From assembly GCA_018336015.1 (NCBI GenBank), contig JAGXQZ010000063.1, positions 1 through 64,000 on the forward strand: a stretch of 64,000 nt of DNA, given 5' to 3'. This DNA comes from Algoriphagus sp. (GTDB taxonomy: Bacteria > Bacteroidota > Bacteroidia > Cytophagales > Cyclobacteriaceae). A program made the position numbers and the translations under genes. Positions 38,594-62,115 of this stretch are shown in pieces (positions within the stretch are counted from its first letter, which is position 1; every line of letters begins with the position of its first letter). Under the pieces are notes generated by a model. That model was not told the origin of the DNA and did no database searches. It saw only the letters and a list, made by a program, of their open reading frames with translations.

Positions 38594-38689
38594 AAGGGCG
38601 TCTTTTGGGCTTGTGCGGGAAGTTACTGGAAAACTCACCAATGCGTTGAATTTTTCCAAATTTTCAACCTTGGGAAAAGTTGAATGAAA

Positions 38690-38722
38690 AAAAATCCCCG
38701 ACAAAAAACATTGCCGGGGATA
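38690..38722 (-). terminator. Terminator of the uronate catabolic operon
   Basis: On the minus strand ATCCCCG pairs with CGGGGAT around a loop containing TTTTTT, and a T8 run follows, just after the uxuA stop. Confidence 0.8.
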
Positions 38723-38744
38723 GATTAGGGGGTATTTGATACCG

Positions 38745-39926
38745 TTATTTCTTGTTTTTTACCCAAAGTAAGGCTTCTTCTACACCTCGGATTTCAGCGA
38801 GTCCTTTGAGTCGTCCGATCGCTGTGTAGCCAGGATTTGCGGTTTTTTTATTCAAATCGTCCAGCATTTGATGACCGTGGTCAGGTCTCATCGGGAGACT
38901 CTTGCCTCGTTTTTCCTGCCACTTTAGGATCTCATCGATCACATCGACCATGGGTACATTTCCCTCCAGGTGGTTGTCCTCGTAGAAGTTACCTTCGGCA
39001 TCACGTTTGGTACTTCGGAGGTGGATAAAATGGATTCGATCTCCAAATTCTCTTACCATCGCAGGCAGGTCGTTGTCAGCTCTTACTCCATAGCTTCCTG
39101 TACAGAAAGTCAATCCATTGTGATGACTCGGGGTTTGGCTGAGGATTCTGCGTGCATCAGCTGCTGTACTTACGACTCGAGGAAGTCCATAAAGTGAGAA
39201 TGGAGGATCATCAGGGTGGATGCACAGGTAAACCCCAACTTCTTCGGCTACAGGTGTGATCGCATCAAGGAAAAGACGAAGGTGATCTGCCAGTTTTGGT
39301 GCGTCGATTCCTTCGTAGGTTTTGAGCATCGCACGAAACTCGTCCATGGTATAGCCAATTTCCGAACCAGGCAATCCTTTTAGGATATTGTCAATGATGA
39401 GTTGTTTGGCTTCAGGAGAAAGCCCTTCGTAATACGCACGGGTAGCTTCTATTTCTTCAGGGGAATGTTCCTGAAAAGCTCCAGGTCTCTGAAGAATGAA
39501 CAAATCAAAGGCTACTACAGCTTTTTTCTCATAGAGAAGCGCTTTAGCACCATTGGGAAGTTCGTATTCCAGATTAGTACGAGTCCAGTCCAGAATAGGC
39601 ATGAAATTATAGCAAACGGTGAAAACTCCCTCTGCAGCCAGATTTCTCAAGGTCTGTTTGTAATTTTCGATCAACTGAAGGTAATCACCAGTCCTGGTTT
39701 TGATTCGTTCGTGTACAGGAACTGATTCTACCACAGACCAAGTAAGTCCGGCTGCTTCAATGATATTTTTTCGCGTTTTGATTTCTTCTCTGGACCAAAC
39801 CTCACCGTTGGGGATGTGATGTAATGCAGAGACAATTCCGGTAGCCCCCGATTGCCTGATATCTCTAAGGCTTACCGGGTCTTTGGGTCCATACCAGCGC
39901 ATGGTTTGCTCCATTCTATAGCTCAT
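38745..39926 (-). CDS. uxuA: Mannonate dehydratase
   Basis: 393 residues, full length. Family blocks include [12 protein letters not shown] at the N-terminus, [18 protein letters not shown] near 235, FCTGSYGVR, and [14 protein letters not shown] near 300, with the metal-binding His, Cys, Asp and His residues conserved. It dehydrates D-mannonate to 2-keto-3-deoxygluconate, the last step of this three-gene set. It is separated from the SDR gene by 152 bp of repeat-like DNA and may still be read from the uxaC promoter. Confidence 0.96.
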
Positions 39927-40078
39927 GGAAATGGTGTTTTAGTTATTGAGTTGTTAGTTAATCGTAATAGAGTAATTCGTAATTGGCTTTCTGGAAGGTA
40001 AAGGTTAAACGATATGTGTTAAAAGTTAAATCGTCATGCTATTGACGAAAAACTAGTAACCATAAACTCTTAACCATT
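39927..40078. repeat. Degenerate repeat words between uxuA and the SDR gene
   Basis: 152 bp with repeated GTTAAA-type and CGTAAT-type words (for example GGTTAAACGAT, AAAGTTAAATCG, AACCATAAACTCTTAACC). No promoter or hairpin was clear. It resembles a decayed short-period tract. Confidence 0.4.
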
Positions 40079-40900
40079 TTACACTCCTGAATAGGCGCTG
40101 AATCCTCCGTCCACCGCCACAATGGTACCTGTGACAAAGGCGGAAGCATCACTGCAAAGCCATTGCAAGGCGCCTAATAAATCTTCAGGCTTTCCGAATC
40201 GGTTCATTGGGGTATGTGTGATGATTTGGTTGCCGCGTTGGGTCAGACTTCCGTCTGACTCGGTAAGTAGCGTTCGGTTTTGTTCGGTCAGGAAGAATCC
40301 CGGCGCGATGGCGTTGACACGGAAAGTTGGTCCATGCTTATGCGCCAACTCTACCGAAAGCCATTTGGTCAGGTTGTCAATTGCAGCCTTAGCTGATGCA
40401 TAGCCCATTACCCGGGTCATGGGCCGAGTTGCGGCCATGGAAGAAATATTGAGAATATTTCCTTGGCCATTTTTCAGCATCAGCGGGAGCAAGGCTTTAA
40501 TTGGCAATACGGTACCCAGGTAATTCAGATCAATCACTTTCTTTAATGAAGCGGTATCCAAATCAAGGAAGTTTTGATCAGGTCTGATGACAGCACCAGG
40601 CATATTTCCGCCTGCGGAATTGATCAGGGTGTCTATTCTGCCATGTTGGGCTTCAATGACTTCTGCCATTTTCTTTAGAGAATCCTCATCGGTGACATCC
40701 GCATAGTAGCCCCAAGCTTTTCCTCCTTTGGAATTGATCTCGCTGACCAAATCACTGACTTTTTCGGGGCTTCGTCCAAGAATTAGTACTTCTGCGCCTT
40801 CTTGTGCCAGATGAAGTGCCATCGTATGACCGAGTACGCCAGTGGCTCCGGAGAACGCGATTTTTTTACCTTGGAGAGAAAATATAGTCGAAGAATTCAT
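40079..40900 (-). CDS. uxuB: SDR family oxidoreductase, probable D-mannonate (fructuronate) oxidoreductase
   Basis: 273 residues from the ATG at 40900, two bases after the uxaC stop; an upstream in-frame start lies deep in uxaC and is rejected. Classical SDR residues: SGATGVLG at 17-24 for the cofactor, S154, and Y167-x3-K171. With uronate isomerase upstream and mannonate dehydratase downstream, the missing step is reduction of D-fructuronate to D-mannonate. SDR-type UxuB enzymes exist in Bacillus (YjmF), whereas the enterobacterial UxuB is of another family. The assignment rests on context. Confidence 0.85.
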   Translation of the reverse strand: MNSSTIFSLQGKKIAFSGATGVLGHTMALHLAQEGAEVLILGRSPEKVSDLVSEINSKGGKAWGYYADVTDEDSLKKMAEVIEAQHGRIDTLINSAGGNMPGAVIRPDQNFLDLDTASLKKVIDLNYLGTVLPIKALLPLMLKNGQGNILNISSMAATRPMTRVMGYASAKAAIDNLTKWLSVELAHKHGPTFRVNAIAPGFFLTEQNRTLLTESDGSLTQRGNQIITHTPMNRFGKPEDLLGALQWLCSDASAFVTGTIVAVDGGFSAYSGV

Positions 40901-40902
40901 TC

Positions 40903-42342
40903 TTATAAGTTGAAATTGTCTCGGGAAAAGTTGAAGTAATTTTTGGCATTGTGGTAGCAGATGTCTGAAACTAGTTTTCCAAGCCATTTTTCATCCCAAG
41001 GCAATTCTTCATTTTCTACATCCTGACCGAAAAGGTTACATAGAATCCGTCTGAAGTATTCATGTCTTGGGAAGGACAGAAAGCTTCTTGAGTCTGTCAG
41101 CATTCCAATGAAACAGCTGATCAATCCCATGTTGGACAGGGTATTCATCTGCTTTTCCATACCGTCTTTTTGATCAAGGTACCACCAACCGGAGCCAAAC
41201 TGTACTTTTCCCTTAATCGATCCGTCGTTAAAGTTACCGATCATCGTAGCAAAAACTTCGTTGTCTCGAGGATTTAGATTGTAGATGACAGTTTGCGAAA
41301 GCTGATCTGTGGAATCCAGTTCATTGAGGAATTTGGACAAAGTCATCGCCTGACTGAAATCTCCGATGGAATCAAATCCTGTATCCGGTCCAAGCACCGA
41401 AAGCATTCGGGTATTTGTATTTCTCAGTGCTCCCAAATGAAACTGCTGCACCCAACCTTTGGAATGGTAGAGCTTGCAGAGTTTTTTAAGCACTTTGAAT
41501 TTAAAGTATTCGATTTCCTCAGAATTAGGGAGATTTCCGCGAAGCACTTTTTGCAAAATACCATCAGCAGAAAGTCTGGAATCGGTGGAGTAGTACAAAT
41601 TTTCCAAGCCATGATCGGACAGTCTGCAACCTCGGGAATGGAAAAAGTCCACTCTCTTGGCGAGCGCTTCGATTAACGTATCAAAGGAACTGATCTCTAT
41701 CCCTGCAGCAATTCCAAGTTTTTGGAGATAGGATTTATAAGCTTCTGGATTTTCTATGGCAAATGACTTATCTGGCCTAAATGCAGGATACATACCTACT
41801 TGTTGATTCTGGCTTAGGTAAGCCGTATGATGCTCAAGGGAATCTACCGGATCGTCTGTAGTGCAGACTACTTCCACGTTCATTTGTTCCAATAAACCCC
41901 TAGCCCGAAAATCTTCCTCTTGGAGAATGGAGGTAGTCTTCATGTATATATCATTTGCATTGGATGTGGTCAGTAAATCGTCTATTCCAAAATATCTACT
42001 GAGCTCCATTTGACTCCAATGATAGAGTGGATTGCGCATGGTATAGGGCAAAGTGAAGGCCCATTTTTCAAACTTTTCCAGATCTGAGGCATTTCCCGTG
42101 ATAAATCGCTCATCGACGCCAAGGGTTCGCATGGCTCTCCATTTGTAGTGGTCACCTGCCAGCCAGATTTTACTGATGTTTTCAAACTTCCTGTTTTGGG
42201 CAATTTCGGCAGGAGGGAGGTGGTTGTGGTAATCTATGATGGGCAGGTGTTTGGCGTAATCGTGGTAAAGGATTTTTGCAAAGTCATTCTTCAACAAAAA
42301 GTCCTCTGAAAGAAAGGTCTTTTGGGTTTGCTCAGTGATCAT
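40903..42342 (-). CDS. uxaC: Uronate isomerase (glucuronate isomerase)
   Basis: 479 residues, full length for the amidohydrolase-fold uronate isomerases. The N-terminal metal motif is DYHNHLPPAEIA near residue 36, a second block is HLGALRNTNTRM near 303, and the C-terminus has FSRDNFNL. It converts D-glucuronate to D-fructuronate (and D-galacturonate to D-tagaturonate). First gene of the uxaC-SDR-uxuA operon. A LacI-type operator at 42423-42434 lies 81 bp upstream of its start, in the region shared with the divergent lacI gene. Confidence 0.96.
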   Translation of the reverse strand: MITEQTQKTFLSEDFLLKNDFAKILYHDYAKHLPIIDYHNHLPPAEIAQNRKFENISKIWLAGDHYKWRAMRTLGVDERFITGNASDLEKFEKWAFTLPYTMRNPLYHWSQMELSRYFGIDDLLTTSNANDIYMKTTSILQEEDFRARGLLEQMNVEVVCTTDDPVDSLEHHTAYLSQNQQVGMYPAFRPDKSFAIENPEAYKSYLQKLGIAAGIEISSFDTLIEALAKRVDFFHSRGCRLSDHGLENLYYSTDSRLSADGILQKVLRGNLPNSEEIEYFKFKVLKKLCKLYHSKGWVQQFHLGALRNTNTRMLSVLGPDTGFDSIGDFSQAMTLSKFLNELDSTDQLSQTVIYNLNPRDNEVFATMIGNFNDGSIKGKVQFGSGWWYLDQKDGMEKQMNTLSNMGLISCFIGMLTDSRSFLSFPRHEYFRRILCNLFGQDVENEELPWDEKWLGKLVSDICYHNAKNYFNFSRDNFNL

Positions 42343-42422
42343 ATTCCTGGATTAGTGGACAGGGTGTAGAGGTTACAAGGATAAATTTATTCTTTCTGAG
42401 CGGCTAATATTTTTTAAAATAC

Positions 42423-42434
42423 GGAAACGATTGC
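42423..42434. promoter_or_regulatory. LacI-type operator between uxaC and lacI
   Basis: GGAAACGATTGC fits GNAANCGNTTNC, the core shape of LacI/CcpA-type sites with a central CG. It lies in the 180-bp divergent region and could control both directions. The same core recurs upstream of susC (48624) and of the DUF1080 gene (51764). Confidence 0.65.
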
Positions 42435-42522
42435 AAGCATTATTTTTTAAGTAAGTGAAAAACAATTTTGATTTAGCTAAAAAAAATATGCATCTTTTTA
42501 GAACAATTAACCCAAAACAATC

Positions 42523-43548
42523 ATGAGTGCCGGAGTAAATTTAAAAGAACTGGCTGCAGAGCTTAAGCTTTCGCCTTCTACGGTGTCCCGAGCGTTGAAT
42601 GATAGCTACGAGATCAGTGAGGCCACCAAAAAAAAGGTGATCAGCATGGCTGAAAAGCTCAACTACCAGCCTAATCCTTTTGCCAGAAGTCTGAGAGAAA
42701 ATAAAAGCAAAACCATTGCAGTGGTTATCCCTGAGCGGATCAGTAGTTTTTTCTCAAAAGTGGTTGACGGAATAGAAGAAATTACTCAGCAATATGGCTA
42801 TCATCTCCTAGTCTACAGTACTCATGAAGACGTAGACCGAGAGAAAAAAATTGTAAATCTCTTGATGAATGGTCGGGCTGATGCCATTATTATGTCGGTG
42901 TCCAGTCAGACAAGTGATATTTCTCACTTGACCCGATTGCATGAAAGAGGATTTCCATTGGTATTTTTTGACAGGATATGTGCAGACATTCCTACGACCA
43001 AGTTTATCACCAATGACTATGAAAGTGGATTCGAAGGTACTAAGCACCTAATTCAGCAAGGATGTCGAAAAATTGCCTTTTTGATGCTTTCCAAGGAGCT
43101 TTCTATTACCAAAGATCGATACAGAGGGTATCTGGATGCATTGAAGCAGGCCGGGCTTTCACCTGAGCCCCAACTTAACATTACCTGCTACCAAGAGGAG
43201 GAGCAAAATGTGGAGGCTATCCGTCAATTGCTTATTTCTCCCAATCGGCCAGATGGAATTTTATCTTCAGTAGAAAAGCTTGCGCTCGCAACCTATCATG
43301 CGGTAAAGCGTACAGACTTACGAATACCGGATGATTTGAAAATTATCAGCTTCTTTTCCAATCTGAGTATTGCCAGTTTGCTTAATCCTTCTTTGACCAC
43401 GATTACCCAGCCGGCATTTTCGATCGGAGAGGAGTGTGCCAAACTGCTGATGAAAAAATTGACCAAGCCAAGACAACCAGACTTGCCCAATCAGACCATC
43501 AGTATTCCTTCTAAAATCACAATTAGATCTTCAACGATCGTCACATAA
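42523..43548 (+). CDS. LacI family transcriptional regulator of uronate use
   Basis: 341 residues. The helix-turn-helix is at 6-26 (LKELAAELKLSPSTVSRALN), the hinge is near 45-60 (LNYQPNPFARSLRENKS), and a periplasmic-binding-protein-like effector domain follows. It is divergent from uxaC and upstream of the SusCD genes, so a sugar-acid or glucuronide effector is inferred. Sites of the LacI type are found before uxaC/lacI, susC and the DUF1080 operon. A strong terminator follows. Confidence 0.92.
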   Translation: MSAGVNLKELAAELKLSPSTVSRALNDSYEISEATKKKVISMAEKLNYQPNPFARSLRENKSKTIAVVIPERISSFFSKVVDGIEEITQQYGYHLLVYSTHEDVDREKKIVNLLMNGRADAIIMSVSSQTSDISHLTRLHERGFPLVFFDRICADIPTTKFITNDYESGFEGTKHLIQQGCRKIAFLMLSKELSITKDRYRGYLDALKQAGLSPEPQLNITCYQEEEQNVEAIRQLLISPNRPDGILSSVEKLALATYHAVKRTDLRIPDDLKIISFFSNLSIASLLNPSLTTITQPAFSIGEECAKLLMKKLTKPRQPDLPNQTISIPSKITIRSSTIVT

Positions 43549-43574
43549 CTTGTTATTGGTTTTTTTAATTATGA

Positions 43575-43608
43575 AAAAGGCCCTGAGATTTCAGGGCCTC
43601 TTTTTTTC
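43575..43608 (+). terminator. Intrinsic terminator of lacI
   Basis: AGGCCCTGA pairs with TCAGGGCCT around a 4-base loop and is followed by a T-rich run. Confidence 0.9.
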
Positions 43609-43713
43609 TTTGCTTTAACGGTTGATTATTTACTTTGAAAAATTAATTCACCTTTTTTCCATTTGGTCTAAAGGAGATTGGTAAAATGAAGTTGTTCTGG
43701 AAAAATAATGGGT

Positions 43714-43749
43714 AAAAAAAAGGTCCTGAAAATCTTCAGGACCTTTTTA
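43714..43749. terminator. Terminator of the susCD operon
   Basis: AGGTCCTGAA pairs with TTCAGGACCT, with A and T runs on both sides. On the minus strand it ends susD. Confidence 0.9.
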
Positions 43750-43766
43750 ACACTCAATACAGATGA

Positions 43767-45452
43767 TTAATAACCAGGATTCTGAGGGAATGCATTGGCG
43801 CCACCTTCAGCTCGGTCGATCTGATTTTGAGGAATTGGTCTCAATACATGGAATTCCTTAATGTTTGGAGCTCCTTGTGGATTGTAAAGTTTTACTCTCT
43901 CAATCAAATTACCCCAACGCTTAAGATCTAACCATCTGAACTGTTCACCTGTCAATTCTCTTGCTCTTTCTTCCATTAAGAAATCAAATGTCATTTGATT
44001 GGCAGTAATTTCCATAGCTGCTTCTTTTCCTGGCCAAGCTGCTCTTCTTCTTACGATATTGATGGTTGCAGTAGCATCAGCTATTTTGCCTTGGCGGAAT
44101 TGAGCTTCTGCAAGCAGAAGATAGGTCTCGGCTAATCTCATGGCGATAAAGTCTCTTCCTCCTTCGAATTGAGTCAAATCTGCTCTTCCTGGATCAATGT
44201 GCTTGGACAAAGAAGGGAACAGTTTTTCATCATATCGACTTGGTACAAGAACTTGGTATTTCTTTTTAGCTCTTTCCGCAAGTGGGACTTCAACTCCAGG
44301 TAAATACATAGTGGTATCACCCTGTGCAAAAGTCAAAGTTGTTTTGCTATTGTCAAAACTTGCATTGAATGTCCCTGGGCGATTAGATCTGTACGTATCC
44401 TTAAATGACTTTTTGTATCTGCTGTCATTTTCGCGGTTTTGAAAAACCGTTTCCATGGCATATACAGTTGGTCTGTATCTTTTGAAAGGACGGCCATTTT
44501 CAGTATCTCTACGCATCCCCGGTTGAGTATCGTATTCCATCAAATAGAACACGTGAGAGTTGTTCCCTCCACCATTGGTCAACTGGACTCTTGTGTATTG
44601 TACTGACCAGATTACCTCATCATTAATTTCATTTCCAAAAGCGTGTACAAGACCGAAATCAGGAAGAAGCTTCAATCCATAGCTTGCAATTACATTCTTG
44701 AATAAGGGTTCCGCTTTGGCAAAATCATCTGCTGCTTTAGCAGAAGATGTTCCTTTGGTTACATAAACCTTTCCCAAAAGGTGTTCAGCTGCTGCTCTTG
44801 TTGCTCTTCCATACTGAGTGGCTGCTTTTTTAGCTTCCAAGCCTGGAATCGCCTCGGTCAAGTCCTTGATAATTGCCGCATAGATTTCAGATTCAGGATT
44901 ACGCTTAACCACTTTGGTCGGAACTTTTGTCTCTTCCAATCTTAATTCAACCGGGCCGAATAATTGGACCAGGATGAAGTAATGGTGAGCTCTGATAAAC
45001 TTGGCCTCTGCGATACGCTGGGTTTTGACTGCGTCAGAAACACCTGTAATGTTTGGGGCACGCTCAATCACTGCGTTGCAGGTATTGATTCCTCTATAGA
45101 AATCATCCCAAAGTTCCCTTACCTGACCATTTTGAGAGTCAAATTGGTTGGTGTAGGTGTTCATGAATTTCCAAGAACCATCTGCACCGTTAGTGTAGAT
45201 ATCGGTACCAAATTCTGTCAAATTATGACCTCTCTCCGTACCATACCAAGATCTCATTGAACTATAAGCGGCACTGACCGCATCATCAAGGCCTTTTGGA
45301 GTATTCAGATACTCTGCACCAATTTGAGAAATAACATCCTCCTGAAGAGCGTCTTGGCAGGCTTGAGTAAATGTTAAGCCTAATACCAATGACCCTGAAA
45401 GCAAGAGGGATTTAAATTGATTTTTTATTGTCAGATTTTTCATTGTCTTCAT
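43767..45452 (-). CDS. susD: SusD/RagB family outer-membrane glycan-binding lipoprotein
   Basis: Up to 561 residues; an alternative ATG at 45443 gives MKNLTIKN. The signal ends in FTQACQD with the probable lipid-anchored Cys32. SusD features include early ISQIGAEYLNTPKGLDDAVSAAY, the TPR-like middle, and the C-terminal DFLMEERARELTGEQFRWLDLKRWGNL and VLRPIPQNQIDRAEGGA. It binds oligosaccharide on the cell surface and closes over the SusC pore. It follows susC by 8 nt. Location next to uronate catabolic genes suggests a uronic-acid-containing ligand. Confidence 0.96.
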   Translation of the reverse strand: MKTMKNLTIKNQFKSLLLSGSLVLGLTFTQACQDALQEDVISQIGAEYLNTPKGLDDAVSAAYSSMRSWYGTERGHNLTEFGTDIYTNGADGSWKFMNTYTNQFDSQNGQVRELWDDFYRGINTCNAVIERAPNITGVSDAVKTQRIAEAKFIRAHHYFILVQLFGPVELRLEETKVPTKVVKRNPESEIYAAIIKDLTEAIPGLEAKKAATQYGRATRAAAEHLLGKVYVTKGTSSAKAADDFAKAEPLFKNVIASYGLKLLPDFGLVHAFGNEINDEVIWSVQYTRVQLTNGGGNNSHVFYLMEYDTQPGMRRDTENGRPFKRYRPTVYAMETVFQNRENDSRYKKSFKDTYRSNRPGTFNASFDNSKTTLTFAQGDTTMYLPGVEVPLAERAKKKYQVLVPSRYDEKLFPSLSKHIDPGRADLTQFEGGRDFIAMRLAETYLLLAEAQFRQGKIADATATINIVRRRAAWPGKEAAMEITANQMTFDFLMEERARELTGEQFRWLDLKRWGNLIERVKLYNPQGAPNIKEFHVLRPIPQNQIDRAEGGANAFPQNPGY

Positions 45453-45460
45453 GCTTAGGA

Positions 45461-48400
45461 TTAAAATTTAGCATTAATACCAAAGGTGTATTGAACTACA
45501 GGAGGAGCAATGTTGGCGTTGATCACACCGCCTTCTACGCCTTGTTCACCGTCGATAAAGGTCTCCGGATCGATGCCTTTGTGCACTTTTCTGTATTCAG
45601 AGAAAATGAATGGATTTTGGATACTTGAATAGAGTCTCAAGCTGGTCAATCCAATCTTCTTGGCAATGTCAGAGCTGAAGTTGTAGCCAAAGTTGATGTT
45701 TCTCACTTTCACGAATGTTCCATCAAATAGTGACATGGAGGAATTGTATTTAGGGAATTCCTGGTTCTGATTTGGTCTTGGATAAGCGTTGGTTGGATTG
45801 GATGGTGTCCAATAATCCACAGCAAGGTTGTTGTATCGACCAAAGAGAGAGTTAAAGCTTTGGTGGAACTGGCTTCGGATCATCGAACCGAATCTTCCAA
45901 ACAAGAAGAAGGATACATCAAAACCTTTGTAAGTGAATCTGTTAGTCATACCCAAAGCAAAATCTGCAACTGCTGAACCCAAGATTACACGGTCCAAAGA
46001 GTTAATTCTTCCGTCACCATTGGTGTCTTGGATTTTTATTTCACCTACTTTATCTCCGAAGCTGGCAGCTAAGTCTTTTTCTGAGGTTTGCCAGATACCG
46101 ATCTTCTTCAAATCATAGAATACGGTCAAAGGCTGTCCAATAAATCTACCAGCAGCAATGTCGTCTCCGTTAGGAAGAGAAACGATCTTTTCTCGGTTTC
46201 TGGTGAAAATCACATCAGTTGACCAGCTGAAGTCACCCTTTTCAATATTCAAAGTAGAAAGTGACATTTCAATACCTCTATTTTGGGTCTCACCGATGTT
46301 GGTGGTGAATCCGCCAAAGCCAGTAGAGTTTGGAAGAGGCTGAGGAGCCAAAAGGTCAGAAGTATTGGTGACGTAATATTCAATCGAACCGAATACTCTG
46401 TTTTTGAAGATAGAGAAGTCAAAACCAGTATTAAATGTAGTGGAAGTTTCCCATCTCAAATCAGGGTTTCCAATCGTGTTTGGCCAATATCCAAAAGCAG
46501 CCGTGTTGTCCCATGAGTAAGAAGTTCTGGCCAAAAGAGCTTGTGTTTGGTATGGCGTAATCGCTTGGTTACCGATGGAACCGTAGCTTACTCTGAATTT
46601 CAATTGATCTACAAATGAGGAATTTTTCAAAAACTCTTCTTGGTGCATGTTCCAACCGAAAGCTGCAGAAGGGAAGAAACCAAACTTGTTGTTTTCGCCG
46701 AATCTTGAGCTACCATCGGCACGTGCAGACGCAGTCAATAGATATTTGCCTTTGTAATCGTAGTTCACACGACCCATGTAAGAAAGTAATGCCCACTCTA
46801 CCAAATTGGTACTTGCACCTGTAATCTGAGAAGCATCTCCCAATCTATGATATAACTGAGAAGGAGCTGGAATACCCAACACGCTAATAGAAGATTGCTC
46901 AAAACGGTCTCTTTGGAAAGACTGAAGGGCTGTGAAATTCAAATTGTGAACTGAATTGAATGTCTTCGTATAGTTCAGAATGTTTTCCAAAGTATAGTTG
47001 AACTGGAATCTGTCATCCACACTGCCGGTAGGATCAGCACCTCGACGGGAATTGGTTTGAGCACCTGTAAATCTTCCGTTTCTTCTTACGGTGTAGTCAG
47101 GGCCGAAATTTACTCGATAAGTCAAGCCTTTGGTTATTTCCCAATTCACATACAAGCTGTTGAAAATTCTGGTTCTGTAGGTTTCATCTACCTGAGCACC
47201 TGGTACAACTTCAGCAAATGGGTTGGTTCTCAAACCATCAGAAGTAGGAAGGAAAATCAAATTTCCTTCGTCATCATAAGGTTTTCCTAGCGGATTTTCT
47301 TGTAGTGCTCCACCGATTGGGTTGAAGTTTTCACCATTTCTTTCACTCATTGTAAATAGAGTGGAAGTACCAATGCTTACATTTTTGGTGATTTTATGAT
47401 CCAGGTTGATTCTAAAAGTATAGCGGGTAAAATCCTGATTGATAATCACACCCAAATCTTTGAAGTAGTTTCCAGATACGAAAAAAGTGGTTTTGTCATT
47501 TCCGCCAGAAACTCCCACCTGATGGCTTTGGATGTTTCCTTGTCTCATCAATCCTGCCACATAATCTGTGCTTCTGCCCAATGCGATACTTTCCAATTCT
47601 ACAGGCTCAAATATCTTTTTGTCGGCTTCTTCTGTTGCTGGACCTTCAGGGTAAGCTCCAGTAGCTCTTCTTGATTCTCTTTTATATTCGGCGAATGCAG
47701 GTCCATCGAATACTTCGATTCTTCCCAATTCATTAGCCACACCATAATAAGAGTCCAAGGAAACTACAGTTTTTCCGGCACCACCACGTTTGGTTGTAAT
47801 CAAAACAACTCCATTGGAACCTCTAGAACCATAGATCGCTGTAGCAGAGGCATCTTTCAACACTTCCATGGAAGTGATATCCTGAGGGTTGATGTCTTCC
47901 AGTCCACCCACAGTTGGGATACCGTCAATTACATAGAGGGGCTCATTGGAAGCGTTGAACGAACGACGACCACGGATACGAACTTGTGGCGCAGAACCGG
48001 GCTTAGAACCGGGCTGAACCACGTCCACACCTGCAGCACGACCCTGAAGGGCTTGACGAGCATCTGTAATTGGAAGTTCCTGGATTTCTTTATTGCCTAC
48101 TGAAGATATCGCACCCGTCAGCTGGCTTTTCTTTTGAGTGCCGTAACCGACTACTACCACTTCTTCTAAGTTGGATACATCCGGATTTAGAGAAACGTCA
48201 ATCTTGGTTCTACTTCCAATAGTTTCTTCAATATTATTGTATCCAATAAAGGAGAAAACCAATACTCCGGAAGCTGGAGCGGCGATGGAATACTTTCCAT
48301 CCAAATCGGTTGTGGTGCCACGGGTGGTACCTTTTAGAAGAATCGAGACACCTGGCAAAGGCATGCCCGTTTCATCCAATACGGTCCCACTCACTTGCAC

Positions 48401-48478
48401 ATCTTGAGCTTGCACAAATCCTGCGCTAAGCATAAGCATGAACACCACCGAGAGGTAAGTGTAAAACTTTTTACGCAT
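45461..48478 (-). CDS. susC: SusC/RagA family TonB-dependent receptor
   Basis: 1005 residues, full length. A signal peptide (to FVQAQ) is followed by the carboxypeptidase-like regulatory domain (about 28-105), the TonB box and plug (VVVGYGTQKKSQLTGAISSV near 112, LYVIDGIPTVGG near 190, SATAIYGSRGSNGVVLITT near 220) and a C-terminal 22-strand barrel ending QYTFGINAKF. There is no STN domain, so no direct sigma/anti-sigma link. It imports the SusD ligand across the outer membrane. Confidence 0.97.
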   Translation of the reverse strand: MRKKFYTYLSVVFMLMLSAGFVQAQDVQVSGTVLDETGMPLPGVSILLKGTTRGTTTDLDGKYSIAAPASGVLVFSFIGYNNIEETIGSRTKIDVSLNPDVSNLEEVVVVGYGTQKKSQLTGAISSVGNKEIQELPITDARQALQGRAAGVDVVQPGSKPGSAPQVRIRGRRSFNASNEPLYVIDGIPTVGGLEDINPQDITSMEVLKDASATAIYGSRGSNGVVLITTKRGGAGKTVVSLDSYYGVANELGRIEVFDGPAFAEYKRESRRATGAYPEGPATEEADKKIFEPVELESIALGRSTDYVAGLMRQGNIQSHQVGVSGGNDKTTFFVSGNYFKDLGVIINQDFTRYTFRINLDHKITKNVSIGTSTLFTMSERNGENFNPIGGALQENPLGKPYDDEGNLIFLPTSDGLRTNPFAEVVPGAQVDETYRTRIFNSLYVNWEITKGLTYRVNFGPDYTVRRNGRFTGAQTNSRRGADPTGSVDDRFQFNYTLENILNYTKTFNSVHNLNFTALQSFQRDRFEQSSISVLGIPAPSQLYHRLGDASQITGASTNLVEWALLSYMGRVNYDYKGKYLLTASARADGSSRFGENNKFGFFPSAAFGWNMHQEEFLKNSSFVDQLKFRVSYGSIGNQAITPYQTQALLARTSYSWDNTAAFGYWPNTIGNPDLRWETSTTFNTGFDFSIFKNRVFGSIEYYVTNTSDLLAPQPLPNSTGFGGFTTNIGETQNRGIEMSLSTLNIEKGDFSWSTDVIFTRNREKIVSLPNGDDIAAGRFIGQPLTVFYDLKKIGIWQTSEKDLAASFGDKVGEIKIQDTNGDGRINSLDRVILGSAVADFALGMTNRFTYKGFDVSFFLFGRFGSMIRSQFHQSFNSLFGRYNNLAVDYWTPSNPTNAYPRPNQNQEFPKYNSSMSLFDGTFVKVRNINFGYNFSSDIAKKIGLTSLRLYSSIQNPFIFSEYRKVHKGIDPETFIDGEQGVEGGVINANIAPPVVQYTFGINAKF

Positions 48479-48571
48479 AGTAATTAGGGGTTATTGTTAT
48501 AGATAAATTGGTTACTTGTATGGAGAAGTCCGATTGTGGACAAGTGGACAAAAACCGAACTTTTCGATACT

Positions 48572-48603
48572 AAAAGGTAGATAGAAGGAAAGGTATGATC
48601 AAA
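48572..48603 (-). promoter_or_regulatory. Candidate susC promoter
   Basis: On the minus strand TTTG (48600-48603), a 20-bp spacer and TACCTTTT (48572-48579) approach the Bacteroidota consensus with one mismatch in the -7 box. The LacI-type operator begins about 15 bp upstream of the -33 element. Confidence 0.4.
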
Positions 48604-48617
48604 TTATCAAACCCCGG

Positions 48618-48652
48618 AATTACGGAATCGATTGCGAAACAATTCCGTAATT
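48618..48652. promoter_or_regulatory. LacI-type operator and 11-bp palindrome upstream of susC
   Basis: The core GGAATCGATTGC (48624-48635) fits GNAANCGNTTNC. Around and beyond it, AATTACGGAAT (48618-48628) and ATTCCGTAATT (48642-48652) form perfect 11-bp arms with a 13-bp spacer. The core thus sits across the left arm and the spacer. Confidence 0.65.
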
Positions 48653-48866
48653 TCGAATAAGTTACCTGTGATTTTTATTTTTTACCAAACAATATTTGGA
48701 ATAGCTAAATCTGTTTATTTCCTATTAGAAACCGTCTAATTTTTATCTTTTTCAAATCAAAAAATCATAATAAAAAATTATAAATAACATTAAAGGTTAT
48801 ATGCTATTTCTTTTGATTACTTCTAATCAAAAGCTTAAGTATAATGCTTGGTTTACCCCAGCAGAC

Positions 48867-48901
48867 AAAAAAACACCAGGCCTTGAATCAAAGCCGGGTG
48901 A
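48867..48901 (-). terminator. Terminator of the DUF1080-Gfo/Idh operon
   Basis: On the minus strand CACCCGGC pairs with GCCTGGTG (one mismatch) and is followed by a T7 run. Confidence 0.75.
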
Positions 48902-48946
48902 GTGTAATTAAGAAAACCAATCAAACGAATTACCTGATGAGTATTT

Positions 48947-50296
48947 TTAGATTTTGGGAGGTTCCCAGCCTTTTTCATATTCTCTTGACCAGAGTGCCAT
49001 TGCTTTTGGAGAATTGGTGATGTGCCCATTTTTCGGATCACAAACCAGTTTTTCGCCAGTTCGGCTACTGATATTGGCCAAGTGACAAAGCAGAGTAGAA
49101 ACCGCGCCTTCCTCGATGTTGGAGTTTTGTTTTTCCTTGCCTCTTACCGCATTAAAGAAATTAACCACATGAGTGGTACTCATATCGCCTCCGCCGCCGA
49201 GCACAGTTCCTCCTTCGTTGTTACTGGCTAGGTTTGACTTTATTTCTTTGCCTGTTCGGTCAAATTGCTTGTAGCCACCGCGATCAACATACACCGAGCC
49301 TTCGGTTCCGTAAATGATTGTTCCTCTATCCGAACCATAGGTTTTGTAGTTGTTTCGGCTTTTTCCTTCCCATTGGATGATTCCACCATTTGCAAACTTG
49401 AACGTAGCATCCATGGTATCATACATGGTCCAACCGTCCTCGGGGTAATGCATTTTTCCTGACACCACCATCACCTCACTTGGATAATCCACCTGTAATG
49501 CCCACCGAGCCACATCCAGCTCATGGGTTGCATTATTTCCGGTCTCTGCTGTACCATAATCCCAACCGTACCAATGCCAGTTGTAATCCCAAGTATCGTG
49601 CATGTAAGGCTTGCGAGGGGCAGGGCCTTGGAAAAGATCCCAATCCAAGCCTGCAGGTGGTGCCTGCTGAATTGGATTAGGAACAGCACCTCGGTTGTTG
49701 CTATAGAAGGCCTTTGCCATGTACACTTTTCCGATTGCACCATTGTGAATTGCGGAAATGATTTCGCGGCTTTCCGGTGCGGAGCGCTGTTGGTTGCCCA
49801 TTTGGACTACTTTGTTGTACTTTTTTTGAAGTGCAATCAGCAATTCACCTTCACGAGGATTGTGTGAGCAAGGCTTTTCTACATAGACATGTTTGCCCCG
49901 ATCCAAGGCAAGCCAAGTACCCGGCGCATGCCAATGGTCAGGTGTGGCATTGATCAATACATCAACTTCCTTGTCATCCAGTACTTTAAAGATGTTTTGC
50001 TCTTGCTTCGGTTTGTAATCAATCCACTTTTCAAAGTTTTTAGCGGCCTTGGGCATCTGGGACTGCATGGCGTCGCACAAGTAAAGGAGATTGACATTGC
50101 TGCTTTTCAGACCAATGGGCTCATAGAACGCTCCCAATCTTCTTCCCAAACCAGCAATGGCCACATTCAAGCGGTCATTGGCTCCTAGGATTTTAGCATA
50201 GGATTTTGGGGAAAATCCCACTGCTCCAAGTGCGGATAGTCCCAGCGTAGCGGCAGCACTTTTTTTTATAAATTCTCTTCTGTTGGATTTGCTCAT
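48947..50296 (-). CDS. Gfo/Idh/MocA family oxidoreductase, Tat-exported
   Basis: 449 residues. The twin-arginine signal is SNRREFIKK at 4-12, followed by a hydrophobic Ala/Gly-rich stretch. The Rossmann motif is VAIAGLGRR near 47, and the family EKP block is YVEKPCSHNPREGE near 140. Members oxidise or reduce sugars with tightly bound NAD(P). Export by Tat suggests folding with cofactor before secretion. It follows a double-DUF1080 gene by 23 nt; such pairs carry out 3-oxidation and cleavage of glycosides. Here the substrate may be a glucuronide, inferred from the neighbours. Confidence 0.93.
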   Translation of the reverse strand: MSKSNRREFIKKSAAATLGLSALGAVGFSPKSYAKILGANDRLNVAIAGLGRRLGAFYEPIGLKSSNVNLLYLCDAMQSQMPKAAKNFEKWIDYKPKQEQNIFKVLDDKEVDVLINATPDHWHAPGTWLALDRGKHVYVEKPCSHNPREGELLIALQKKYNKVVQMGNQQRSAPESREIISAIHNGAIGKVYMAKAFYSNNRGAVPNPIQQAPPAGLDWDLFQGPAPRKPYMHDTWDYNWHWYGWDYGTAETGNNATHELDVARWALQVDYPSEVMVVSGKMHYPEDGWTMYDTMDATFKFANGGIIQWEGKSRNNYKTYGSDRGTIIYGTEGSVYVDRGGYKQFDRTGKEIKSNLASNNEGGTVLGGGGDMSTTHVVNFFNAVRGKEKQNSNIEEGAVSTLLCHLANISSRTGEKLVCDPKNGHITNSPKAMALWSREYEKGWEPPKI

Positions 50297-50319
50297 GATT
50301 CAATAGGTTTTACTACCAA

Positions 50320-51687
50320 TTATTTCAATGGCTTGATTTTGATGTTTTTATAGCTCACTTCATCTCCATGGTCCTGTAGGAGGATTCTGCCTTCTTTGGC
50401 TTCTCCGAAGTTTGGCCAAATCTTGTATTTGCTTATTGCCACGAGGTCACGGTATTCTTTAGATCCTCTGACATATTCTACCACTTTGACACCATTGATG
50501 TAATGCTCCACTCGATTGTCAGGATAAACTACGACTCTGCCTTGGTTCCATTCTCCTGGTTTTCTGACAAAACGAGGCTGTTTGTTGGCTTTGATCAGGT
50601 CGTATAGAGATGCCAAAGTTCTATTTCCGTCTATACCTTGCTTGGCGTCAGGATGGTTGACATCGTCCAAAATTTGGTATTCCAAACCAATTGCAGAGCC
50701 TTTGTTTCCTTCGGAAAGGGTTACAAAATACTTCACTCCACTATTTGCACCTTCAGTGATTTTGAAATCAAAGGCCAAATCAAAGGCGCTGTACATCTCG
50801 GTAGTCACAATATCCCCAAAGGAATTGGATTCGCTGCCGTCTGACTTTTGAATGGTCAAAATTCCATCTTTGATATTCCAACCTTTTTCAGGGAAAGTGT
50901 TTTTATAGGCACCTACCCAGCCATTGCTGGTTTTTCCATCAAAAAGCAGCTTCCAACCGTTTTTCTTTTCAAGGTCAGTGAGTTCATTTTTTAGTGTGCT
51001 TACCACAAATACATCGCCTTTGAAGGGAATTGGCTTCAAGTTTTCAGTTTGGATTCTGACATTTCTGAAATAAGTCTTTCTTCCTTCGTCTTCTTTTTTC
51101 TGGATGCTGTGTACTTGTAATCCAATAAAACCTTTGGCATCCATGTCATCTACGAAGTAGGCTACTTCCTGACCATTTACCCAAGTTTTGATGGTGTTTC
51201 CGATGGCTTCGATGCGATAGGTATTCCATTCACCCATTTTGAAAGCAGATTTGGCAGCAGGGTTGAGATCTAGGGTGTAAAACCACCCTCTTCTTGCTTC
51301 ATCGTATACGCCTCCAGACCAAGCACGAGGTGTAGGATCTGCTTCGATCTGATAGCCAAATACCAAGCCTTCGCCATTTCTTGCTGCCGGGTCAAATTGA
51401 CCTCTTGCCATGATCCCGCTATTGGAAGATATGTGGTTGATTTTGAGGTCGACTTCCAGAATAAAATCTGTGTACATTTCTTCGCTGACAAGGAAGGTAT
51501 TACCTGTACCATGTACTGCTGTACCCTCGATGACTCCGTCTTTTACTTCAAAGGTTGCCTTTCCGGCAATAGCTTTCCAACCGCTCAGGTCTTTGCCATT
51601 AAAGAGGTTTTTCCAGTTGCCGTTTTGTGCTTGAGCCGCCATCGTAAACAGGGTCAAGACGGCTAAGCATGCGATTCTTAGTTTCAT
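50320..51687 (-). CDS. Tandem DUF1080 (3-keto-disaccharide hydrolase) protein
   Basis: 455 residues. A signal peptide (MKLRIACLAVLTLFTMAAQA) is followed by two concanavalin-like DUF1080 domains. The first starts WKNLFNGKDLSGWKA near residue 26, and the second WKLLFDGKTSNGWVG near 240. Some characterised DUF1080 proteins hydrolyse or eliminate 3-keto-glycosides made by Gfo/Idh enzymes. The partner oxidoreductase is the next gene, so periplasmic oxidative cleavage of a glycoside is inferred. A LacI-type operator lies 77-88 bp upstream of the start. Confidence 0.9.
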   Translation of the reverse strand: MKLRIACLAVLTLFTMAAQAQNGNWKNLFNGKDLSGWKAIAGKATFEVKDGVIEGTAVHGTGNTFLVSEEMYTDFILEVDLKINHISSNSGIMARGQFDPAARNGEGLVFGYQIEADPTPRAWSGGVYDEARRGWFYTLDLNPAAKSAFKMGEWNTYRIEAIGNTIKTWVNGQEVAYFVDDMDAKGFIGLQVHSIQKKEDEGRKTYFRNVRIQTENLKPIPFKGDVFVVSTLKNELTDLEKKNGWKLLFDGKTSNGWVGAYKNTFPEKGWNIKDGILTIQKSDGSESNSFGDIVTTEMYSAFDLAFDFKITEGANSGVKYFVTLSEGNKGSAIGLEYQILDDVNHPDAKQGIDGNRTLASLYDLIKANKQPRFVRKPGEWNQGRVVVYPDNRVEHYINGVKVVEYVRGSKEYRDLVAISKYKIWPNFGEAKEGRILLQDHGDEVSYKNIKIKPLK

Positions 51688-51760
51688 AGGGTTTTTCGTA
51701 TTTGAATTAGCTAAAATTGACCAAATCGAGGGGGAGGGACAATATTAGATGGATTCAATT

Positions 51761-51787
51761 TACGAAAACGATTGCGAGTTTTTCGTA
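51761..51787. promoter_or_regulatory. LacI-type operator upstream of the DUF1080 operon
   Basis: The core GAAAACGATTGC (51764-51775) fits GNAANCGNTTNC. An outer inverted repeat TACGAAAA (51761-51768) and TTTTCGTA (51780-51787) resembles the arrangement upstream of susC. Confidence 0.65.
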
Positions 51788-51859
51788 TGAAAAGGGGATA
51801 GGCGGTCAGGTATTTTTTGGAGTTCTGAGGTTTGAGCGATCTGTTTAGTACTTTTGCGC

Positions 51860-53020
51860 ATGCTTGATTTTAATCAAAAAGGAAAAGTATTCATTACCTG
51901 CAAAGACCGTTCGGTCATGTATCTTGAGCAGGAAGTTCGGGAGTTAGGATTTGTACCCAAAGAAGTAACTCGGACAGGCATAGAGCTGATCGCTTCGATG
52001 GAGGATTGCATGGACCTCAATCTTCACCTCCGCACGGCTTCCCATGTGCTTTATGAGATCAAATCTTTTTACCTCCGAGGGGCAGAGGATATTTACCGAC
52101 GATTCAAAGCCATTCCTTGGGAAGACTATCTCGATGTGGATGGGTATTTTTCAGTGAATTCGGTGGTGGAAAATGAATCCGTAACCACGCCGCTGATCGT
52201 GAATGTCAAGGTGAAGGATGCCATTGTGGACCGTTTCCGAGAGTTGAAAGGTAGAAGACCGGATTCGGGCTCGGATTTTATTGGCATGGTTTTTCAAGTT
52301 TTTTGGAAAGAAACGCAAGCCTCGGTTTACATCAATACCTCAGGTGAAACGCTGGCCAAGCACGGTTACCGCAAGATCCCCGGAAAAGCACCCATGATGG
52401 AAGCTCTTGCAGCTGCAACAATTTATGCAACTGAGTGGAACACCCGAGTACCCTTTATCAATCCCATGTGCGGTTCGGGTACCTTGGCGATTGAGGCGGC
52501 CTTGATGGCGTCCAAGCGCTATCCGGGTTTGTATCGAACTGAATATGCCTTTCAGCATATCCTCGGCTACGATCCGCAGGCTTTTTTGGCTAAAAAGAAA
52601 AAGCTGGAAAATAAAGTCATCCATGATCCTGGTGTGGTCATTGTTGCTTCTGATATTTCACTACAGGCTATTTCTTTTGCCCAAGAAAATGCGGCCTTCG
52701 CCGGAGTGGAGCACATGATTGATTTTCAAGTGTGTGATTTTGCGGAAACCGAAATTCCGGAACGACCTCGAGGTGTGATCATGTTTAATCCTGAGTACGG
52801 AGAGCGATTGGGTGAAAACGATGAACTCGAAGTGACCTACAAACGAATGGGGGATTTTATGAAGCAAAAATGTGCCGGATACAGGGGTTATATTTTCACC
52901 GGAAATCTTGAACTAGCCAAGAAAGTAGGACTAAAGGCGAGCCGAAGGATTGAATTTTGGAATGGGACGATTGACTGCCGATTGCTCAAATATGAAATGT
53001 ACGAGGGGAAGAGGGAGTAG
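51860..53020 (+). CDS. THUMP-domain class I RNA methyltransferase (RlmL-type)
   Basis: 386 residues from the ATG at 51860. The N-terminal THUMP region (about 1-160) is followed by a SAM-binding methyltransferase domain with NPMCGSGTLAIEAAL near 200 and the catalytic-type loop FNPEYGERLGE near 315, where the usual NPPY is NPEY. E. coli RlmL makes m2G2445 in 23S rRNA, and the same guanine N2 activity is expected. A TACTTTTG box ends only three bases before the ATG, so the transcript may be leaderless. Single gene. Confidence 0.9.
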   Translation: MLDFNQKGKVFITCKDRSVMYLEQEVRELGFVPKEVTRTGIELIASMEDCMDLNLHLRTASHVLYEIKSFYLRGAEDIYRRFKAIPWEDYLDVDGYFSVNSVVENESVTTPLIVNVKVKDAIVDRFRELKGRRPDSGSDFIGMVFQVFWKETQASVYINTSGETLAKHGYRKIPGKAPMMEALAAATIYATEWNTRVPFINPMCGSGTLAIEAALMASKRYPGLYRTEYAFQHILGYDPQAFLAKKKKLENKVIHDPGVVIVASDISLQAISFAQENAAFAGVEHMIDFQVCDFAETEIPERPRGVIMFNPEYGERLGENDELEVTYKRMGDFMKQKCAGYRGYIFTGNLELAKKVGLKASRRIEFWNGTIDCRLLKYEMYEGKRE

Positions 53021-59393: not shown

Positions 59394-60695
59394 TTATTTC
59401 GATTTTAATCCAGGAGATCTTTCGAGGAATTCCTGATATAATCGGATGTGTCTGTTTGACATCGGGATTCGGTATCCGTCAATGAAGACATGGATGATTT
59501 GGCTGCGAGTCTCAAAAGGGTCACCTGTCGAGACGATCAGATTAGCTCTCTTTCCAGCTTCGACAGATCCATATTGATCGGCGATGCCAAAGATCTCAGC
59601 AGGATTGATGGTGACTGCTTTAAGTGCTTCTTCTTTTCCAAGTCCATAAGCCGCCGCGAACGCCGCGTGGAAAGGTAAGTTTCTTACATTTTCCTCCTCA
59701 TCTGTTCTCAAGGCAACTTTTACTCCTGCTTTGGCTAGCTTACCTGCGTTGGTATATGCTGCATCGTATCGGTCAGACTGACGAGTTGGGAGTTCCTGCA
59801 CAGGACCTGTAACTACTGGAATACCGGCTTTCGCAATTTCCTCAGCTACTCTCCATCCCTCGGCTACTCCAGTGAAGATCACTTTGATATTTTTTCCCTG
59901 CACCCATTTGATGGCATTCTGTATATCAGAGGCAGCATTGACTTCGATTAGAAGCGGAAGCTCTCCGGAGATTACCTTAGCCAGCTGATCCATTTCTGGA
60001 TAGTAAGATAGCTGAGCGCCTGACTTTTTCAGTTCGAGGTAGCTTTTGGCATTGTCCCAGATATCATTGGCATCTTTCAAGGCTTTGTCAGAGTCTTTTT
60101 TGATGTCTTCTTCCGATCTGCGATCGAATCGACCACGTCGGCCTGAACTTGGGAAGGTCATTGCAACTGCTTTGAATCCTCCGTACATCTGATCAGGTGT
60201 GTAGCCATTCAAGTTGATCAAGGCAGCTGTACCTGGAAACAATCCTCCGGAAGGAACTGTCAATACTGTAGTCACTCCGGAAACCCGGGTTACTCCGATG
60301 GCTTCAGAATTAGGATTGACTGTCGTCAAAGCCTGCATGTTTGGAGTAACATTTCCATTTTCTGCATAATCCACGGTCTCAGGTACAGAACTTACTTCAA
60401 CCAAGCCAAGGCGTGTGCCGCCATCAATCATTCCCGGATAGATAAACATTCCGGTACAGTCGATAACTTCTGCATCAGAGGCATTTATATTGGTTCCCAC
60501 TTGGGAGATTTTACCGTTTTCCAACAGGACAGAAGCGTTGTTCAAGGTTCCTTTGGTCACGGTGACTACGGTAGCATTTTTCAGGAGAAATTTACCGGTG
60601 CGAGGTTTTACAAATTCCCCGTCGATCTGGGCCATTGCCACCACGGGAAGCAGGGCAAGAATAGAGGCGCAAAAGGTTTTTAAAATTCGGTTCAT
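59394..60695 (-). CDS. Amidohydrolase-like exported protein lacking the metal HxH (third of three)
   Basis: 433 residues. The signal peptide ends near VVAMAQ. The composite-domain start (FLLKNATVVTVTKGTL) and end (VTINPAEIFGIADQYGSVEAGKRANLIVSTGDP) are those of the amidohydrolase superfamily. However, the strand-1 motif is YPGMIDGGTRLGL (85-97) instead of DxHxH, and no replacement His ligands are obvious in the barrel. It is therefore probably not a standard metal-dependent hydrolase. It follows the intact paralogue by 24 nt. Confidence 0.85.
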   Translation of the reverse strand: MNRILKTFCASILALLPVVAMAQIDGEFVKPRTGKFLLKNATVVTVTKGTLNNASVLLENGKISQVGTNINASDAEVIDCTGMFIYPGMIDGGTRLGLVEVSSVPETVDYAENGNVTPNMQALTTVNPNSEAIGVTRVSGVTTVLTVPSGGLFPGTAALINLNGYTPDQMYGGFKAVAMTFPSSGRRGRFDRRSEEDIKKDSDKALKDANDIWDNAKSYLELKKSGAQLSYYPEMDQLAKVISGELPLLIEVNAASDIQNAIKWVQGKNIKVIFTGVAEGWRVAEEIAKAGIPVVTGPVQELPTRQSDRYDAAYTNAGKLAKAGVKVALRTDEEENVRNLPFHAAFAAAYGLGKEEALKAVTINPAEIFGIADQYGSVEAGKRANLIVSTGDPFETRSQIIHVFIDGYRIPMSNRHIRLYQEFLERSPGLKSK

Positions 60696-60719
60696 GTGAT
60701 TCTTGAATTTTCGGGGTGA

Positions 60720-62111: not shown

Positions 62112-62115
62112 CTGT

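Follow-up and report, generated by a model that had tools for sequence, protein, structure and literature searches.

Systems that open glycosidic bonds by way of a 3-keto sugar have been described in several bacteria. The closest to the one discussed here, a pair of genes for a Gfo/Idh/MocA oxidoreductase and a DUF1080 protein lying among glucuronate genes in a 64,000-nucleotide stretch of Algoriphagus sp. (GCA_018336015.1, contig JAGXQZ010000063.1, positions 1-64,000 of the forward strand; hereafter the window), are BT2156-BT2159 of Bacteroides thetaiotaomicron and the AL enzymes of Alistipes, in which a Gfo/Idh protein (BT2158, AL3) is likewise paired with a DUF1080 protein (BT2157, AL2). 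According to the available text of a review, the conversion of glucosinolates in vitro requires BT2158 plus BT2156 or BT2157 (PMC12385236). In the accessible parts of two other sources, DUF1080 proteins were named 3-ketotrehalose hydrolase and proposed as 3'-ketolactose hydrolase (PMC9007349), and were proposed to act on the backbone of xanthan, another glucuronate-containing glycan (PMC5673643). In Agrobacterium, a 3-keto-glucoside is converted to glucose by the successive action of an eliminase (AtOGE), a hydratase (AtHYD, a role described as preliminary) and a Gfo oxidoreductase (PMC10628242); together with Rhizobium GlycDH, this route oxidises, eliminates, hydrates and reduces, with Gfo reducing 3-keto-glucose, as is proposed below for glucuronides, but its eliminase is a TIM barrel rather than a DUF1080 protein and its substrates are glucosides rather than glucuronides. 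A further parallel is GH188 (SqgA), with a Gfo/Idh-like fold, which frees a C6-anionic hexose by transient oxidation at C3 and whose clusters lack a classical glycosidase; it is, however, a single all-in-one enzyme, and the available text reports it inactive on p-nitrophenyl-beta-glucuronic acid (PMC10755693). In the literature covered, which included few subscription journals and gives a weak negative, nothing was found that links DUF1080 or this type of Gfo/Idh to uronate operons, and the accessible portion of a paper on a Gramella pectin locus had no bearing on such a link (PMC5306329).

The locus in the window differs from the B. thetaiotaomicron and Alistipes systems in that the pair sits in a glucuronate regulon and in that the DUF1080 protein is of the two-domain BT3469 type. 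The genome, that of a water bacterium (4.46 Mb, 107 contigs; family Cyclobacteriaceae), has Algoriphagus aquaeductus as its closest relative among the matches listed, with 95% identity in the Gfo/Idh protein. All eight genes of the locus were confirmed, each matching family models. On the minus strand lie the two-domain DUF1080 gene (50320..51687; PF06439, 298.4 bits in two stretches against a gathering score of 26.8), the Gfo/Idh gene (48947..50296; PF01408, PF22725), the gene of a SusC-like TonB-dependent outer-membrane importer (45461..48478; TIGR04056, 887.7 bits), that of a SusD-like lipoprotein (43767..45452; PF07980, PF14322), uxaC for glucuronate/galacturonate isomerase (40903..42342; PF02614; NF002794, 607 bits, cut-off 387), a gene for a fructuronate reductase (UxuB function) of the short-chain dehydrogenase/reductase (SDR) type (40079..40900; NF006132 D-mannonate oxidoreductase, 358 bits, cut-off 281) and uxuA for mannonate dehydratase (38745..39926; PF03786; TIGR00695, 531.5 bits, cut-off 199.55). 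A lacI-family regulator gene lies on the plus strand (42523..43548; PF00356, PF13377). The longest open reading frame (ORF) of the SDR gene spans 40079-40987. Residue 34 is where the NF006132 match begins, and the gene more likely starts with the ATG at 40900. The original prediction had read this region as a complete route from glucuronate to 2-keto-3-deoxygluconate (KDG) beside a LacI regulator, a SusC/SusD pair and an operon of a two-domain DUF1080 protein and a twin-arginine (Tat)-exported oxidoreductase, with no glycoside hydrolase or polysaccharide lyase in 13 kb. This composition held throughout: all three enzymes of the route scored above curated cut-offs, the SusC/SusD pair that marks a polysaccharide utilisation locus is there, and models of glycoside hydrolases and polysaccharide lyases matched none of the ten proteins of 36812-53020 and none of 19 further ORFs of the window, these together being 29 of its 43 ORFs of at least 180 aa. 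As in the known UxaC/UxuB/UxuA route, isomerase, reductase and dehydratase are encoded in one operon; unlike in that route, the reductase is an SDR, and the operator is common with susCD and the Gfo/Idh-DUF1080 pair.

A palindrome of the LacI type was found upstream of each of the three units when the intergenic DNA was read: TACGGAAACGATTGCAAG at 42420..42437, between uxaC and lacI (78 bp before the former and 86 bp before the latter), TACGGAATCGATTGCGAA at 48621..48638, 143 bp before susC, and TACGAAAACGATTGCGAG at 51761..51778, 74 bp before the DUF1080 gene. The consensus, TACGNAAWCGWTTNCR, has three perfect matches in the 4.46 Mb, all of which are these three promoters. A stricter 12-mer, GRAAWCGATTGC, matches the genome four times, three of them at the locus, and its control pattern 0 times; the fourth match (C10:80519) falls within an unrelated 268-aa ORF and was taken as chance. 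In the window, the 15-mer motif at up to one mismatch gave 4 matches (one being the susC site reversed) against a mean of 0.15 for shuffled sequence. Over the whole genome, tolerating one mismatch in TACGNAAWCGWTTNCR added 17 matches, one of which is again the susC site read in reverse, for a total of 20 against 18 for a control pattern; one-mismatch matches as a class are noise and were not counted as regulon. Members of this class at chance level include a copy about 90 bp before a phosphoenolpyruvate carboxykinase gene (L126; G000:C49:47100) and another that overlaps the 5' end of a different SusC ORF.

The same arrangement recurs in relatives. In 80 orthologous Gfo/Idh loci, the best 80 of at least 443 confirmed relatives, the core site GNAAWCGWTTNC was sought within 300 bp upstream of ORFs, and LacI was scored as seen when lacI was present in the fetched stretch of the locus, a score confined to that stretch. 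The core site precedes SusC in 35/35 cases. For uxaC it was found before 29/29 ORFs in loci with LacI seen and before 0/12 in 11 compact loci without LacI, and for DUF1080 the corresponding counts were 26/28 and 0/11 (40/56 over all loci); one of the two DUF1080 misses in the presence of LacI is an over-long ORF call in front of which the site exists (L019), and the other has no site (L028). Genes inside the units lacked it (Gfo/Idh 0/82, SDR 0/43, uxuA 0/42, SusD 0/35), and of 645 other ORFs it preceded 35, among them some on a shared divergent promoter. Site and regulator are missing together across loci, as would be expected if this LacI binds the site, and LacI is probably the repressor of all three units. 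Because the same predicted operator precedes each unit, it is very likely that one repressor controls outer-membrane uptake, the periplasmic two-enzyme step and the cytoplasmic glucuronate route. This predicted operator is the new element that turns gene adjacency into one regulon, as the original prediction had surmised, and we regard a co-regulation and functional link of the Gfo/Idh-DUF1080 pair with uronate use as nearly certain.

Further perfect operator matches were found in A. terrigena (L035), A. oliviformis (L036) and A. aquimarinus (L063), none of them before a glycosidase recognised by the comparison. One kind lies inside an ORF that by eye resembles aspartokinase, and another match is located between a different LacI gene and an aldolase-like gene (L202). 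In A. terrigena, a perfect operator stands 95 bp before a second type of Gfo/Idh gene (cluster c51, 63% to the L068 copy; L198:6918), which is perhaps a further member of the regulon in that species. A different palindrome, TGNGCAATCGATTGCNCA, occurs near UxaA and divergent KDG-kinase or tripartite ATP-independent periplasmic (TRAP) transporter genes in eight loci (L060, L061, L064, L067, L069, L070, L091, L094) and is probably the site of another LacI-type regulator.

The enzymatic role of the pair was approached through family membership and predicted structures, and both proteins proved akin to known 3-keto-glycoside enzymes, as had been supposed. The family of the DUF1080 protein, PF06439, is now named 3-keto-disaccharide hydrolase. 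Its N-terminus is, by eye, of the Sec type, and its predicted structure (mean predicted local distance difference test score, pLDDT, 89.4) matched BT3469 (4jqt) over the full length with 53% identity in a Foldseek comparison, including the two-domain layout. For BT3469 no function was found, the literature naming it being an endo-levanase structure paper. The C-terminal domain alone showed 35-38% identity to BT2157 (3osd), 8tda, AL2 (8v31) and 8rr2/9fbe, and the titles of these structures describe 8tda ('BT2' of B. thetaiotaomicron) and the Alistipes AL2 as 3-keto-2-hydroxy-glucal hydratases and 8rr2/9fbe as a 3-keto-glycoside eliminase/hydratase; from their near-equal scores, 8tda and 3osd would be the same protein, BT2157. 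The motifs HPDAK (at 345) and GNR (at 354) of the C-terminal domain, which aligned with BT2157 and AL2, are present in 57/57 locus copies longer than 400 aa and are invariant among the aligned orthologues. The DUF1080 protein is therefore a probable 3-keto-glycoside eliminase/hydratase, as judged from fold and motif conservation.

The Gfo/Idh protein carries a Tat signal at its N-terminus (RR at 6-7). Its predicted structure (pLDDT 82.6) was best matched by DgpA1 (template modelling score to the query 0.60) and by the glucoside-3-dehydrogenase AL3 (0.69-0.71), which is also its first relative in sequence; both partners of the B. thetaiotaomicron and Alistipes systems are thus among the best structural matches of the pair. 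The protein has a Rossmann fold; Lys141, in an EKP motif, and His258 align with AL3 and are invariant across 30 aligned sequences, and such residues have catalytic roles in the Gfo/Idh family. The protein is a probable glycoside (glucuronide) 3-dehydrogenase. Because it scored 153.9 bits over residues 5-282, far below the cut-off of 750, with the family of the BT_2158 glycoside 3-dehydrogenase (NF058561), it belongs to a separate, uncharacterised subfamily.

From these elements a route can be proposed. SusCD would import small glucuronides, such as aldobiouronic acids or plant glucuronides, into the periplasm, where the Gfo/Idh protein, exported in the folded state via Tat with tightly held NAD, would oxidise C3 of the glucuronosyl residue; the resulting 3-ketone would permit departure of the aglycone by beta-elimination, and the eliminated product would be hydrated and then reduced back to free glucuronate. 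Glucuronate would be imported, perhaps by the TRAP system of contig C61, and UxaC, the SDR and UxuA would in turn convert it to KDG, at which the route in the locus ends; contig C61 carries a cluster with a KDG-kinase-like gene, KDPG (2-keto-3-deoxy-6-phosphogluconate) aldolase, the TRAP transporter, UxaA and a mannitol-dehydrogenase-type (UxaB-like) gene. Because UxaC needs glucuronate, the 3-keto product has to be reduced; one would thus expect the oxidation to be transient and the net reaction to be a hydrolysis, and not oxidation in place of hydrolysis, a point on which the original prediction has to be corrected. We infer the substrate, C3 as the site of oxidation, what each DUF1080 domain does and how the redox cycle closes, and the whole chain with a glucuronide as substrate has, in our judgement, slightly less than an even chance of being right. 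Since the regulon holds the mannonate arm only, no UxaE was found in this organism and UxaA is in the separate cluster of C61, the uronate is probably glucuronate rather than galacturonate.

The association of the pair with uronate genes, which the original prediction had suggested looking for in related genomes, was recovered in 56/80 of the orthologous loci: 46 with uxaC, SDR or uxuA, 49 when UxaA is counted, and seven more after the sequence was extended. In the latter seven, all from Algoriphagus (L032, L035, L036, L038, L039, L042, L063), lacI-uxaC-SDR-uxuA lies beyond a second SusCD pair, and a lack of uronate genes was dismissed there as a range artefact. DUF1080 directly precedes Gfo/Idh in 60/80 loci, and in 11 loci DUF1080, Gfo/Idh, uxaC, SDR and uxuA form a single run with a Gfo/Idh-uxaC gap of 90-122 bp. 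In a sample of 148 genomes of the family, uxaC (E-value <= 1e-60) was present in 63/68 genomes with Gfo/Idh (E-value <= 1e-120) versus 43/80 without (Fisher p 1.2e-7, a test that ignores relatedness), and in 38/38 of those whose Gfo/Idh has at least 65% identity; the two genes are no more than 20 kb apart in 22/68. In a phylum sample, 22 of 395 genomes had a match at E <= 1e-150, four of these being the genome itself and its genus; among the other 18 neighbourhoods, 6 contain uronate-gene homologues in different gene orders. For instance, two (L183, L186) are arranged as TRAP-UxaE-SDR-aldolase-KdgK-uxaC, followed further on by uxuA and by Gfo/Idh-DUF1080-LacI, one has KdgK-aldolase-UxaA near Gfo/Idh and DUF1080 (L187), and one has KdgK-aldolase only (L188). 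The label 'uronate-linked' was mapped on a 60-sequence tree that included three distant paralogues (with L066 scored as having no uronate gene despite a UxaA homologue, and L062 as linked despite its genes being on another contig). The mapping requires five changes, and well supported branches make at least four of these unavoidable, so that the uronate link was gained or lost repeatedly. We consider it nearly an even question, with the balance just on the negative side, whether Bacteroidota possess, in several gene orders, a uronide-specific branch of oxidative deglycosylation in which a glucuronide 3-dehydrogenase exported via Tat, together with a two-domain DUF1080 protein acting as 3-keto-glucuronide eliminase/hydratase, feeds the Uxa/Uxu steps; in some groups the same branch perhaps supplies galacturonate too.

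Some neighbours were recorded beside these loci. Five loci (L067, L069, L070, L091, L094) lack DUF1080 and have Gfo/Idh adjoining UxaA-SDR-uxuA and, downstream, a gene of the DUF6807 cluster; the first three have a second Gfo/Idh copy. In two Marinilabilia loci (L086, L076), DUF1080-Gfo/Idh is followed by a gene for ApbE flavin transferase and another Tat-type protein (by Pfam, for the L086 copy only), a hint of a flavin-type electron partner. Two Algoriphagus species have, inside the regulon and between SusD and LacI, ORFs of 649 and 643 aa (L043:16443-18392 and L044:9401-11332), the former without a Pfam match, and in loci of the Algoriphagus type the far-side neighbour of the DUF1080 promoter is an RlmL-type RNA methyltransferase gene (40 ORFs).

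Several findings weigh against the proposed release of glucuronate by the pair. The low score with the BT_2158 family has been given above; in addition, no carboxylate-binding residue was established in the Gfo/Idh protein, and no inner-membrane transporter was found within the regulon. Uronate genes were lacking from 24 of the 80 loci, eight of them on contigs shorter than 17 kb and 16 with at least 17 kb of sequence. Two of these 16 are explained, one (L037) ending within the cluster and the other, from Rhodonellum (L062), carrying lacI-uxaC-SDR-uxuA and an operator on a separate contig. The remaining 14 are unexplained, 11 of them from Larkinella, Spirosoma, Siphonobacter, Arundinibacter and Rudanella; in four of these, a Tat-type AP_endonuc_2 TIM-barrel homologue lies beside Gfo/Idh. 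Twelve of the 18 distant neighbourhoods likewise have no uronate genes. Furthermore, ordinary hydrolases are at hand. The same genome encodes a GH67 alpha-glucuronidase on contig C12, with an operator-like site, TACGCAGTCGATTCC, on the minus strand 61 bp before the likely start codon; the site has one mismatch to the 15-mer and two to the 16-mer of the genome-wide search, its spacing is like that of the three operators, and Markov-shuffled copies of the 19.9-kb stretch around GH67 had a mean of 0.12 such sites (maximum 2 in 60 draws). Possibly GH67 belongs to the regulon as a weaker, fourth member. The Rhodonellum cluster has a GH3 gene, with an operator of its own, between Gfo/Idh and susC. 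Seven relatives outside Algoriphagus (L062, L068, L071, L072, L074, L080, L087) have a GH2-type gene divergent from DUF1080 across the operator region (clusters c23 and c61, GH2 models matching one member of each), and these genes may belong to the regulon there. In three genera, Indibacter, Arthrospiribacter and Mongoliibacter (L073, L074, L087), uxuA is followed by GH43, a further LacI gene and GH67. The lack of a hydrolase in the 13 kb, to which the original prediction had appealed, is therefore a weak argument, although the observation itself is correct, and the Rhodonellum GH3 gene is in spirit the co-regulated hydrolase that the prediction had named as counter-evidence, in that species. 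It could be argued from these data that the glucuronate is freed by such hydrolases, or by enzymes that neighbours make, and that the substrates of the pair are uronic acids, free or decorated (4-O-methylglucuronate, for instance), which it would modify ahead of the UxaC step. We consider this improbable: one-mismatch sites are at control level genome-wide and the site before GH67 departs from the 16-mer at one more position, three relatives with GH67 in the examined locus have no such site before it, no uronate gene lies beside GH67 in this genome, a genome search found no GH115 and no GH88/105 above cut-off, and, as a matter of chemical reasoning, a ketone at C3 alone does not labilise an ether at C4. 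Ordinary hydrolases may rather work beside the oxidative pair.

A different objection concerns the bond that is cut. The same chemistry could act on another bond of an acidic oligosaccharide, be it that of a neutral residue linked to the uronate or one in a galacturonide or pectic fragment, with glucuronate as a co-product that the same regulon uses. Relatives of the two proteins have been implicated in the cleavage of neutral disaccharides and glucosinolates in the accessible parts of PMC9007349 and PMC12385236, pectin-type loci with GH28, pectinesterase, GH106 or GH127 and UxaE harbour distant homologues, a setting that suits galacturonides or other pectic parts, and in Echinicola a GH95 gene is found some 3 kb beyond UxaA-DUF1080-Gfo/Idh. 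The mannonate-only locus and the probable identity of the uronate as glucuronate argue against this, as does the finding that the operator-marked units contain no neutral-sugar gene, and we consider such a target unlikely, though by no means negligible. The original prediction has also to be corrected in that distant homologues are found next to galacturonate, pectin or rhamnosidase genes as well. Quite unlikely, in our view, is that the Gfo/Idh protein does the whole reaction by itself as an NAD-dependent glucuronidase, in the way of GH109 or GH188, with DUF1080 as a helper or binding protein. Six loci (L060, L067, L069, L070, L091, L094) do keep Gfo/Idh by uronate genes without DUF1080, five of them with a DUF6807-cluster gene nearby, GH188 and GH109 are Gfo/Idh-type folds with transient oxidation at C3 according to the available text of PMC10755693, and a conserved glycine loop (GGGG, residues 367-370) is reminiscent of the GGHGG loop in GH109. 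However, the GGHGG acid-base loop itself occurs in 0/83 locus copies and 0/18 distant copies, and GH109 chains matched the profile in the N-terminal Rossmann part only (E 2e-5 and 2.5e-4), on which grounds membership of GH109 was rejected; membership of GH188 was rejected as well, no SqgA chain being among the best 60 of 78 matches (to E 7e-4) or among another 34, and SqgA is a match in fold alone, with 15-18% identity. The regular position of DUF1080 directly before Gfo/Idh also speaks against a single-enzyme mechanism. Finally, the pair might be co-regulated for another step, such as epimerising, oxidising or detoxifying sugars that accompany glucuronides, in the manner of glucose-fructose and aldose-aldose oxidoreductases, which the profile of the Gfo/Idh protein also matched; AL3 and DgpA are better matches in sequence and fold and the partner is related to 3-keto-glycoside eliminase/hydratases, and we consider this explanation very improbable.

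Glucuronic acid is common in hemicelluloses, in algal and bacterial polysaccharides, in conjugated drugs and in plant metabolites; in annotation, known hydrolases and lyases are the only enzymes to which its release is ascribed. If cleavage of glucuronides by the Gfo/Idh-DUF1080 pair is correct, it would explain uronate clusters without a glucuronidase, as GH188 did for sulfoquinovose clusters without a classical glycosidase. Since alpha and beta linkages need not be told apart by such a mechanism, the pair could then also open glucuronides on which none of the organism's own glycosidases acts. The predicted operator together with the fixed set of genes makes a concrete and cheap test possible in culturable species such as Algoriphagus.

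Elsewhere in the window, three genes of the amidohydrolase family follow one another on the minus strand (59394-63813), with a gene for an M28 peptidase downstream (57154-59250). A protein of the plant-auxin-type GH3 acyl-adenylase family (PF03321), which is not a glycosidase, is encoded at 12866-14443 on the plus strand, in this case in a bacterium. At the beginning of the window (19-2220, plus strand), a gene encodes a protein with an MBG_2 domain and a Por secretion tail, for which export by the type IX system is probable.

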